From Bacteroidota bacterium (GTDB taxonomy: Bacteria > Bacteroidota > Bacteroidia > 2-12-FULL-35-15), in NCBI GenBank assembly GCA_947469885.1, contig CANIQT010000005.1, forward strand, positions 62,001-126,000: DNA of 64,000 nt, read 5' to 3'. Shown here piece after piece: positions 11,881-51,118 of the stretch. Both the position numbers and the translations under genes were made by a program. The notes under the pieces are model-generated. The model did no database searches and was not told where the DNA came from. It was given only the letters and a program-made list of their open reading frames with translations. How positions within the stretch are numbered: the stretch's first letter is position 1; every line of letters starts with the position of its first letter.

Positions 11881-11928
11881 GTGCGGTGCGGTGCGGTGCG
11901 GTGCGGTGCGGTGCGGTGCGGTGCGGTA
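11881..11928. repeat. (GTGCG)n perfect pentanucleotide repeat, ~9.5 copies
   Basis: gtgcggtgcggtgcg... uninterrupted for 48 nt. Confidence 0.97.
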
Positions 11929-12119: not shown

Positions 12120-12277
12120 CAACCACCAACAATTGACACCAAAGTTTGAATGTTTGCCACCAAAGTTTGGCACTTTGTCATGAAAGTTTGAAACATTGAA
12201 GCCAAAGTTTGAATGTTTGACACCAAAGTTTGGAACTTTGACATGAAAGTTTGAATGTTTGGCACCAAAGGACGTGT
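12120..12277 (+). repeat. 21-bp tandem array, locus 1 (consensus AAAGTTTGrAwsTTTGrCAcc)
   Basis: AAAGTTT at 12141, 12162, 12183, 12204, 12225, 12246 and AAAGGAC at 12267: exactly 21 bp apart each. Confidence 0.95.
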
Positions 12278-12402: not shown

Positions 12403-12879
12403 TTAGTGGGTTTTAACTTTCTGTAATTTTTTTTCCAGTGTTTTTATTTTTTCTTCCAGGTCACCAATATGCTTATTTTTCAATTTTGCTAACTCGTCTG
12501 TTTTTTCTAGTTCCGATTCGAGGTGTTTAATTAACTTTTCGGAAGATTGCACTTTGTATTTCAAAAACACGATGCTCTCCGTACTTTCGGCAGGTGATAG
12601 GTTTTCGGGGTTTTCGGATGTTGGTTGTGTAACTTCTGAACTAGAAACAAACATTGGCAATTCGCCCTGCTCTATGTATTTTCTGTTCACATTATAAATA
12701 TCTATAATTTTATCAATCAGTTTTCTCCCTGCATTCGATTTGTTATTCAAAATCATATTGATTGTTGGCTGACGGTAGCCCAATTTGTCTGAAAATTGGG
12801 ATTCGTTATCAACAATTTTATTTTTTAATAGGTTTTTGTAAACCTCCGAAACCCTTTTATTTATTGATTTTTTGTCCAT
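12403..12879 (-). CDS. XRE-like HTH regulator with C-terminal coiled coil
   Basis: SQFSDKLGYRQPTINMILNNKSNAGRKLIDKIIDIYNV = HTH; C-terminal EKLIKHLESELEKTDELAKLKNKHIGDLEEKIKTLEKKL coiled coil. Confidence 0.85.
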   Translation of the reverse strand: MDKKSINKRVSEVYKNLLKNKIVDNESQFSDKLGYRQPTINMILNNKSNAGRKLIDKIIDIYNVNRKYIEQGELPMFVSSSEVTQPTSENPENLSPAESTESIVFLKYKVQSSEKLIKHLESELEKTDELAKLKNKHIGDLEEKIKTLEKKLQKVKTH

Positions 12880-33994: not shown

Positions 33995-34156
33995 AGATAG
34001 AAATAATAATTTGTATGCCTTTTATTACCATGTGTATCCCCAGCAACCCCTGTTATCAGCCAAGTTTATTCTCCTTAACTTTAATAAAAAGTTATGCCAC
34101 AAAATCAAATATTATTACCGTATTCTTGTTTAGTCAATATTAGAAATCCGCATAAC

Positions 34157-34564
34157 ATGCAGATTAAAACGATTACTATTATTGGAGATTCGACAAAAGA
34201 TGTGTTCAAACAATTGCGCGATGAAGCCGACAGACTTATGCAAAGTGATGCAATATTAATTGATTTTGGAATTCATATTACTCAGCCTGTAACTGCTGAT
34301 TATGCGCATTTGCAGGCGGATACTGCGCAGGATGAATTATTGAGAATTCGTTGTGTGCAAGATGGGTTGAACGAAAACCAAACTGATAAATTAAAGTTTT
34401 ATTGCAAAGGTTGGCCGCACCAAAAAATTGCTTTAAGATTTTATGTTACTCCCAAAACAATAACATCAGTTTTGAAAAGGGCTCGTAAAAAATCGGGAAG
34501 AAAAACGCTTGAAAAGCTAAAAGAGTTTTTGGTGGGGGCAGGTGGCGGAGCCAAGAATCCTTAA
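34157..34564 (+). CDS. LuxR-like HTH protein; cassette 2
   Basis: C-terminal LNENQTDKLKFYCKGWPHQKIALRFYVTPKTITSVLKRARKK; Met at 34157 (MQIKTITIIG) preferred to 34094. Confidence 0.65.
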   Translation: MQIKTITIIGDSTKDVFKQLRDEADRLMQSDAILIDFGIHITQPVTADYAHLQADTAQDELLRIRCVQDGLNENQTDKLKFYCKGWPHQKIALRFYVTPKTITSVLKRARKKSGRKTLEKLKEFLVGAGGGAKNP

Positions 34565-34689: not shown

Positions 34690-35010
34690 AAAATTCGAAC
34701 ATTGTTTATCAATGTTTACAAGGGTTTTATCAAAGTTCGGGAAGATTTGATGAAAGTTCGGGACTTTTTGCCAAAAGTTCGGGAACTTTTGATAAAAGTT
34801 CGGGAACTTTTGATGAAAGTTCGGGAACAATAAAACAAAGTTCCGGAACATTAAGGCAAAGTTCGGGAACAATGGAACAAAGTTCAGGAACAATTGACAA
34901 AAGTTCGGGAACTTTTGGCTAAAAGTACCGAACAATGACGGAAACTTCCTGAACTTTGATAAAAACTTCCCGAATGATGACAAACATATTGGGAACAAAA
35001 GGGAAAACAT
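34690..35010 (+). repeat. 21-bp tandem array, locus 2 (core AAAGTTCGGGAACnnTTGAnn), ~15 units
   Basis: Unit starts at 34690, 34711, 34732, 34753, 34774, 34795, 34816, 34837, 34858, 34879, 34900, 34921, 34942, 34963, 34984: constant 21-bp phase, outer units degenerate. Confidence 0.97.
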
Positions 35011-35143: not shown

Positions 35144-35817
35144 ATGAGAGAAATCATTAATTGTAAAAGAGAATTTTCGGGACTTGCTGAAGACAAACGC
35201 CCAGCTTATTTAATAAGAATGGGAGCTGCATTAACACTTAATGCAGGTGTTTTTCCTGATATTCCGTATGCAGGAAGTGTTATCACGGCAGATGCATTAG
35301 TTTTGCTTGGTTTGCTTGGCGTTAAAGATGCAAGCGATGCAAACATGACAGCTTATAATTCCGGGCTTGCAGCAATTATAGCCAAGGTAGAGAAAACTAT
35401 GACGACATTGACCTTGTGGCGCAAGGTGATGCACTAATAGTGGCAAAAGCAGGAGTAAACGGAACGAGTGGAAACACTACCAGAACAGGGATACCCGGAG
35501 AACCTGAAAATTTAAAATTTGAATTTGCACCTGGAGCGGGTGATATATTTTTGACCCGCGAAGTAGATAAAATTGCAATGGGAAGTGTGATTGTTACGTT
35601 TACCGACCCTGATATAACAGTGGTAAAAAGCGCAAACACTCAATTAAAAATTACAACTGCTGATGGCAAATTTATTTTTGTGGATGTGGTAACGGTAATT
35701 AAGGCTCTTATCCAATCTCAACAAAAGAAAAGTGAAATAATGTCGGTGGTTGCTAATTTTAATCCTAACGGACTTTCGCCAATTGCAAGTCCTACACCAG
35801 CTGTGGTGCCGAGATAA
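35144..35817 (+). pseudogene. ~224 aa protein, cassette 2, interrupted by an apparent 1-nt deletion near 35390-35400
   Basis: Frame 1 MREIINCKREF...AAIIAKVE, then -1 frame NYDDIDLVAQGDALIVAKAGVNGTSG...GLSPIASPTPAVVPR; together they give a continuous helical + FN3-like protein. Confidence 0.7.
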
Positions 35818-49450: not shown

Positions 49451-49481
49451 AAATCCCGCTCTTTTTTCAAGAACGGGATTT
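49451..49481 (-). terminator. intrinsic terminator, GAAA loop; cassette 3
   Basis: Minus strand AAATCCCGTTCTT-GAAA-AAGAGCGGGATTTTTTTT. Confidence 0.85.
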
Positions 49482-50198: not shown

Positions 50199-50269
50199 TG
50201 TTTTTAGATTTTATTGTTTGTTATTGTTATTATTTGTTGATTATTAGACTTTTATATAATTTATACCAA

Positions 50270-50530
50270 CTTGGGGAACTTTCCCTGAACCTTCTAGAAC
50301 TTTCCCCGAAGCTTTGGGAACTTTCCGCGAACCTTCAGCAACTTTCCCCGAACCTTCGGGAACTTTCCGCGAACCTTCGGGGAACTTTCCGCGAACCTTC
50401 AGCAACTTTCCCCGAACCTTCAGCAACTTTCCGCGAACTTGGAAAAAGCTGAAAAATGAGTTTGGGAACTTTCCCTGAACCTTCAGGAACTTTCCAATAA
50501 GTCAACAAAACAACTTGCCGAACTCCCATA
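50270..50530 (-). repeat. 21-bp tandem array, locus 3 (minus-strand consensus AAAGTTCCCGAAGGTTCGsGG), ~11 units
   Basis: AACTTTCC at 50277, 50298, 50319, 50340, 50361, 50383, 50404, 50425, 50467, 50488 (degenerate unit at 50446): 21-bp steps with one 22-bp step. Confidence 0.96.
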
Positions 50531-50671: not shown

Positions 50672-51118
50672 TTAAAACAAATTTTCTCCTTTTCTTTTTC
50701 CGGTAATGATAAAACGTGCGTCATCAGTAAATTCTACGCCCAACAGCTTTCTCATTTTGCGGAGGTGTTTGTTTGCAGTGTTTAGTTTTATTCCCAATTC
50801 GCTTTCAATGTTTTTTAGCTGAATTCCCCTCTCTAGAGCCAACATTACGTTGGTTGCCATCATGGGGACTTTTTTAATCCAACATAGTTTTATGAAGTAG
50901 TCTGTTTGCACCCATTTTAGGTAATCTGCCTCCGAAGGCAAATCAGGAATGAGCATGCAATACGCTCCGTTGTCCCACAATTTTTTGTCAGGAGCGGTGG
51001 TGTTTAGCGCATCTTCTGCATTTTTCCATTTGATGTCGTCTTTTTTGCCCTTCATTTTTCGAATGCCAGTCATGTACATTTTGTTGTTAAACACAATAAT
51101 TAGTTTTGGTTTTTTCAT
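50672..51118 (-). CDS. HTH (LuxR-like) DNA-binding protein; cassette 3
   Basis: ALERGIQLKNIESELGIKLNTANKHLRKMRKLLGV. Confidence 0.65.
   Translation of the reverse strand: MKKPKLIIVFNNKMYMTGIRKMKGKKDDIKWKNAEDALNTTAPDKKLWDNGAYCMLIPDLPSEADYLKWVQTDYFIKLCWIKKVPMMATNVMLALERGIQLKNIESELGIKLNTANKHLRKMRKLLGVEFTDDARFIITGKRKGENLF

Follow-up and report, generated by a model that had tools for sequence, protein, structure and literature searches.

The focal array of 21-bp units lies in the window, i.e. the whole stretch of 64,000 nucleotides that was analysed, and it is one of a class of tandem arrays, each with a unit sequence private to it. A family of small FN3-like (FN3L) proteins is tied to these private arrays in at least three phyla (Bacteroidota, Ignavibacteria, and one Verrucomicrobia MAG). 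The reading favoured here, to which about an even chance is given, is that they are helically phased operator arrays with private specificity, which would be bound by locus-specific proteins and would control the FN3L genes. The features of the window are listed in Table 1.

Table 1. Features of the three array loci in the window (positions in the window, 5' to 3' of the forward strand; locus 3 is the focal locus)
Feature	Positions	Strand	Remarks
Locus 1, paralogous array	12133..12270	plus	unit CACCAAAGTTTGGAACTTTGA
Locus 1, XRE-type HTH gene	12403..12879	minus	HTH_3, E 9.5e-5
Locus 1, FN3L family B gene, 223 aa	13129..13800	plus	relatives in the same genome
Locus 2, HTH gene	34094..34564	plus	weak sigma-70 region 4 match
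Locus 2, paralogous array	34725..34980	plus	unit TTTGATGAAAGTTCGGGAACA
Locus 2, FN3L-type gene (family C)	35144..35817	plus	split by a frameshift near 35400-35416
Locus 3, intrinsic-terminator-like hairpin	49451..49481	minus	directly 3' of the FN3L gene
Locus 3, FN3-like gene, FN3L family A, 231 aa	49503..50198	minus	hairpin and FN3-type beta domain
Locus 3, AT-rich interval from array to start codon	50199..50261	minus	presumed core promoter and leader
Locus 3, focal tandem array	50262..50500	minus	ten AAAGTT units and one degenerate unit
Locus 3, gene of a small DNA-binding protein, 148 aa	50672..51118	minus	LuxR/GerE-like C-terminal HTH (predicted structure)

The focal array has the ten clear units and the one degenerate unit that the initial annotation had described. 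Its unit consensus is CCCGAAGGTTCGsGGAAAGTT, repeated in 21-bp steps with a single 22-bp step. On the minus strand, the first bases of the AAAGTT word lie at 50493, 50472, 50430, 50409, 50388, 50366, 50345, 50324, 50303, and 50282, i.e. at steps of 21, 42 (across the degenerate unit), 21, 21, 22, 21, 21, 21, and 21 bp. The best lag-21 identity over 84 bp is 0.83; when the 510 bp around it were dinucleotide-shuffled 500 times, the mean was 0.38 (sd 0.04, maximum 0.52). The 22-bp step reported earlier is real, but its coordinates depend on the phase in which the unit is read, and by AAAGTT it runs from 50388 to 50366. The alternation of half-repeats 10 and 11 bp apart was found as well, with GAA[AG]GTT steps of 10, 11, 42, 10, 11, 10, 11, 11, 11, 10, 11, 10, 11, 21, 10, and 11 bp. 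The unit family of the focal array also includes locus 2, another LuxR-like module, and five more arrays. Between the focal array and its FN3L gene no terminator-like hairpin was found.

Locus 2 has the same HTH - array - FN3-like order and orientation as locus 3, as had been noticed. A relative of its split family C gene, 224 aa long and with an open frame, is present in the same genome (L243:3961-4632). Locus 1 departs from this order: its array comes first, followed by a divergent HTH gene and then the FN3-like gene. At window positions 11881-11927, 200 bp from the locus 1 array, the 5-bp word GTGCG is repeated perfectly in tandem (9.4 copies).

The link between FN3L genes and arrays is established in this genome and in its relatives. 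When periods of 5-60 were scanned in the 450 bp upstream of the gene, the best period was 21 or 42 in 45 of 54 distinct FN3L loci, which represent several families across the phylum. In the half of this genome that was compared, 14 of the 19 FN3L A/B genes have an array in the 350 bp upstream, as have 84 of the 1558 genes of other kinds (odds ratio 49, p 5e-14); none of the 19 has one within 350 bp downstream. A typical FN3L array contains 11 units, and 74 bp separate its end from the ATG (both values are medians). Nearly every FN3L gene in related genomes has a 21-bp array with a sequence of its own just upstream. All 16 named loci from Ignavibacteria, Chitinophagaceae, and the Verrucomicrobia MAG have 21, 42, or 63 as their best period, four of them with weak scores (0.51-0.55). 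At L329:1758-2309 of the Verrucomicrobia MAG, a G+C-rich 21-bp array with the unit TCACTGCGGGCAAGCCTGCGG stands upstream of a FN3L gene.

Within the genus, genomes with several FN3L genes have many matches of AAAGTT, or of its reversed control, at the period (for example 73 in G004, 64 in G005, and 39 in G014), and genomes without FN3L have few, except for three with simple heptamer runs. AAAGTT was rejected as a universal box; it is present in some arrays and absent from most. The Bacteroidota box TAnnTTTG occurs between array and gene in 7 of 54 loci, against 3.6 by shuffling, and no conserved promoter box was seen there, a point against the operator reading.

The FN3L proteins are about 230 aa long and form a family without annotated function; the focal member has no Pfam or NCBIfam match. 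Its structure, modelled from an alignment of 29 sequences, is predicted to comprise a helical hairpin (residues 9-72) and a FN3-type beta domain (about 143-229), with a mean pLDDT of 93. Fold searches returned mainly FN3 domains, and the PDB and viral matches are generic FN3 and tail-fibre FN3 domains, which point to no function. At least eight relatives of type A and at least nine of type B, the latter seeded with the locus 1 protein, are present in this genome. Other genes of 190-260 aa just 3' of arrays were grouped as types C, D, and E and singletons by position, size, and weak fn3 signals only; two of them have weak fn3 matches, and no sequence link to type A was found here. Two type E genes are near-identical, with near-identical flanks (L237:133-726 and L216:6-392), and solo arrays with a unit similar to theirs occur at three other places. 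No phage relative was found in viral contigs searched with the A2 profile, and no plasmid relative of the locus 1 protein; an origin from phage or plasmid was therefore rejected. Pattern scans could not be based on the full A1 profile because of its divergence.

Among the array steps, 93% are of 21 bp, 5% of 20 or 22 bp, and 0.6% of 18 or 24 bp. Since the 20- and 22-bp steps outnumber those of 18 and 24 bp, codons are not the constraint. The value of 21 is the smallest integer period that gives a whole number of 10.5-bp turns. The unit sequence is private to each array and turns over faster than that of the protein, with the period kept at 21. Unit similarity rises with protein identity (Mantel r 0.19, p 0.001), and in protein pairs above 60% identity recognisably similar units were found in only about one third. 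FN3L proteins that are 74-79% identical can carry unrelated arrays, which counts against the operator reading.

Dyad symmetry is established for the class, where it exceeds that of column permutations (z 15.6, 96 arrays, 41 of them individually at p<0.05), and it is found in the FN3L arrays as well (z 10.3; 15 of 40 individually). The focal array alone reaches p of about 0.10 only, and this was also counted against the operator reading. The arrays are neutral with respect to strand: relative to the gene, AT skew is positive in 21 and GC skew in 20 of the 40 FN3L arrays, and two loci with 92%-identical proteins (L085 and L086) have similar units in opposite orientation. Dyad symmetry beyond chance together with the lack of strand skew places the constraint on the DNA, rather than on coding or on RNA. 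The initial annotation implied an operator array with one site per helical turn. The 10/11-bp spacing of half-repeats belongs to the focal array and not to the class, in which shift-10 self-similarity is at chance (96 arrays, z -0.9), and the half-repeat was rejected as a general feature.

The protein encoded beside the focal array is predicted to have helices at residues 86-139, with a moderate mean pLDDT of 68 (87-91 within the HTH). Its structural matches are nearly all to the LuxR family, although the best E value is a non-significant 0.03 (the C-terminal domain of VraR gives a TM of 0.71), and this suggests a LuxR-like protein. Its sole homologue among 41 genomes is in G004 (44% identity), in the same HTH - array - FN3-like order, with a FN3L protein 64% identical to the focal one and a unit related to the focal unit. 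For this pair, array, HTH gene, and presumed target gene have been inherited together.

DNA-binding genes are enriched near arrays in general. In a set of 137 small array-adjacent genes, the families HTH_3, HTH_26, LytTR, TetR, and GerE have at least two members each, and none of these reaches two members in 137 control genes. Per-protein scans of array-linked genes found XRE, LytTR, TetR, GerE, HxlR, and ArsR proteins, in many cases encoded beyond the array as seen from the FN3L gene. When the arrays linked to 20 DNA-binding genes were compared, each of the five closest pairs combined two genes of the same class; over all pairs, array similarity follows no trend with class (p 0.34). The suggestion that the array is an operator for the adjacent HTH product thus gains from the LuxR/GerE-like HTH, from the order shared with G004, from the enrichment of DNA-binding genes, from the class dyad symmetry, and from the helical period. 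As a general rule it is not supported, because the constant partner of the arrays is the FN3-like gene and not the HTH gene. Further, for over half of the arrays no DNA-binding gene can be recognised beside them, and close homologues can stand beside dissimilar arrays (a TetR pair of 56% identity; an XRE pair of 48% likewise); these points and the missing trend over all pairs count against the operator reading itself. Unit families (40 similar pairs of 5356, against 1.6 expected) join arrays of modules with solo arrays, as a regulon would.

From this evidence we infer protein binding, its cooperativity, the control of the FN3L genes, which protein is the binder, and what FN3L does. The focal array would be a tandem operator immediately 5' of the presumed FN3L promoter, with some ten sites that recur every two turns of B-DNA and share one face of the helix. 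Its units would be bound cooperatively by a DNA-binding protein specific to the locus, for which the LuxR-like product of the gene at 50672-51118 is the most likely candidate; once bound, this regulator would set how strongly the FN3L gene, and perhaps also the regulator gene itself, is transcribed. The unit sequence may drift and be homogenised within each array while the 21-bp step stays fixed, since it would be the many phased copies of the cognate site that matter. The module may then be a widespread one, composed of a DNA-binding protein of variable class that is not always adjacent, a private 21-bp array, and a FN3L protein. If the arrays are operators, they offer hundreds of natural array/regulator pairs for studying how binding specificity and sites change together, and also how helical phasing and the number of sites set expression.

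The census covered 2.04 Mb of the 4.07 Mb (50%) of one draft genome, and the genomes of relatives were covered around matches; gene calls are longest-ORF calls. With low complexity removed, 159 tandem arrays of period 10-63 were found, of which 114 have a period of 21 (88), 42 (22), or 22 (4), and every other period has at most 11 arrays. After merging, 109 arrays remain, about one per 18 kb, and by extrapolation from the 2.04 Mb the whole genome would hold roughly 200. Contig ends are often at or beside FN3L genes or arrays (L098:1-24, L061:1-19, L077:1-11, and L117:5307-5640), so it is probable that assemblies break at arrays and that the count is too low. Two arrays keep strictly to 22 bp in place of 21, at L198:19824-20000 (continuing in L199) and at L217:8194-8450, the latter array lying between a FN3L gene and a TetR gene. 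Solo arrays are found in all gene contexts, and two of them are directly upstream of guaA (L204:10252-10501) and gyrB (L212:11374-11677). Of 94 arrays, 13 lie between convergent genes, which also counts against the operator reading.

Only 6% of the gaps between arrays are shorter than 5 kb, compared with 21+-4% under random intergenic placement (minimum of 1000 trials 7%), and the coefficient of variation of the gaps is 0.71 against 0.89+-0.08 in the intergenic null, with a median gap of 15.5 kb. The arrays are therefore over-dispersed along the chromosome, and the operator model does not explain this even spacing.

One alternative is that the arrays are by-products of duplication or slippage in 21-bp steps, or passengers of a mobile FN3L cassette, without a function of their own. 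Towards the edges of an array the units become more degenerate (0.79, against 0.88 inside), as is expected from unequal exchange, and some arrays are flanked by dispersed repeats. Gain and loss are also fast: an array upstream of guaA is present in 3 of 30 genomes (G000, G004, and G035) and absent from G005, where GuaA is 93% identical, which fits turnover, and a conserved position at orthologous sites was rejected. However, placement is both one-sided and near-universal, upstream of genes for very divergent FN3L proteins in at least three phyla, and both the dyad symmetry and the fixed distance to the gene start need selection or a very peculiar mechanism. A by-product origin is possible for the solo arrays but hard to square with the FN3L link, and overall it appears rather unlikely. 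A dispersed repeat of about 200 bp (78-84% identity) was observed distal to some FN3L-linked and solo arrays, at approximately L244:18240-18460, L183:1500-1720, and L200:6110-6330, and beside L201:198-496.

The main rival to the operator reading is that of sequence-independent structural DNA, in which in-phase bends would form curved segments that pin supercoils or mark domains, and private sequences would avoid recombination between them. It would account for an array roughly every 18 kb in all gene contexts, for the over-dispersion with few gaps below 5 kb, and for the conservation of the period alone with the sequence left free. Predicted curvature is about double in the arrays (0.62 against 0.32-0.36 in other DNA), and 21-bp arrays of any unit sequence bend coherently. 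But compared with permutations of its own letters, a unit is not especially curved (percentile 0.51), so curvature itself is not selected, and selection for unit curvature was rejected. Neither the strong dyad symmetry nor the strict placement upstream of FN3L genes is predicted by structural DNA, which is thus considered unlikely. A similarly doubtful proposal is a chromosome-wide system that reads helical phasing only, with private, evenly spaced arrays at about one per 18 kb and FN3L proteins as dedicated partners; its candidate roles would be a supercoil pin, a domain boundary, or a scaffold for a one-face filament with a contact every two turns. If structural, the arrays would be a chromosome-wide architectural element.

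It is less probable still that the array acts at the RNA level, with transcribed repeats processed to 21-nt units that bind or neutralise FN3L as ToxI does for ToxN. As in such systems, a private repeat array immediately precedes a small gene and the arrangement recurs many times in a genome, and the focal array folds better as RNA than its shuffles (z -3.6). Against this, the arrays are not skewed by strand, units of similar sequence can face either way relative to the gene, and no terminator separates array and gene. In palindromic arrays, 139 of 315 double changes in paired columns are complementary, hardly more than the expected one third, and FN3L has a FN3 fold and not that of a ToxN-like nuclease. 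Coding of heptads (21 bp as seven residues of a coiled-coil or repeat protein) is extremely improbable: long open frames do run through several arrays, but on either strand, as is expected for any stop-free 21-mer, steps of 20 and 22 bp are about eight times as frequent as those of 18 and 24 bp, a called gene of at least 150 aa covers most of the array in just 7 of 109 cases, and for the focal array the 22-bp step refutes it.

No description of such private phased arrays was found in open-access papers in PubMed Central, and we know of no described system in which a protein family is tied to arrays that conserve spacing and not sequence. Several known systems share part of the pattern. LytTR regulators are autoregulatory and bind 9-bp direct repeats 12 bp apart, i.e. 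with a 21-bp step (PMC6193735). Their operators resemble the arrays here in this step, in the minority of 20 and 22 bp, and in their place just upstream of the promoter, which here is a presumed one (PMC6193735). The LytTR repeats are bound by the adjacent regulator (PMC6193735), and two array-linked genes here encode LytTR proteins. However, LytTR operators have one repeat pair and a consensus broadly shared in the family, whereas the arrays here have about eleven units and private sequences. The adjacent regulators here are of many classes, only two of the examined array-linked genes being LytTR, and the constant partner is FN3-like. The focal locus has a LuxR-like HTH in place of the LytTR DNA-binding protein, and in place of its partner membrane protein a FN3L protein of 231 aa without a membrane-protein family match.

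The type III toxin-antitoxin systems (ToxIN, TenpIN, and CptIN) are alike in that small genes, several per genome, are each immediately preceded by a tandem array with a sequence of its own. They have other repeat lengths, a strand-specific action of the RNA, an endoribonuclease as toxin, and a terminator between array and toxin. The arrays here differ in repeat length, in the lack of such a terminator, and in showing no one-stranded RNA array, as there is no strand skew and units are inverted in a homologous locus. FN3L proteins match FN3 folds, without a Pfam or NCBIfam match, and not the endoribonuclease fold of ToxN, CptN, and TenpN. CRISPR features are absent, since the units stand head to tail without spacers, and no cas genes were seen among the neighbours.

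Iterons and parC-type centromeres consist of direct repeats of about 20-22 bp on one helical face, beside the gene of their binder and with a sequence private to the replicon. The arrays here share the repeat length, the single face, and the private sequence. Unlike iterons and parC, they are on chromosomal contigs in the order of 100-200 arrays per genome, with no Rep, ParM, or TubZ gene seen and no plasmid match for the locus 1 protein. REP/BIME elements are alike in their many intergenic copies, palindromic units, and proposed roles in supercoiling. Their sequence is shared genome-wide, whereas here 40 of 5356 array pairs are alike and it is the period alone that is shared.
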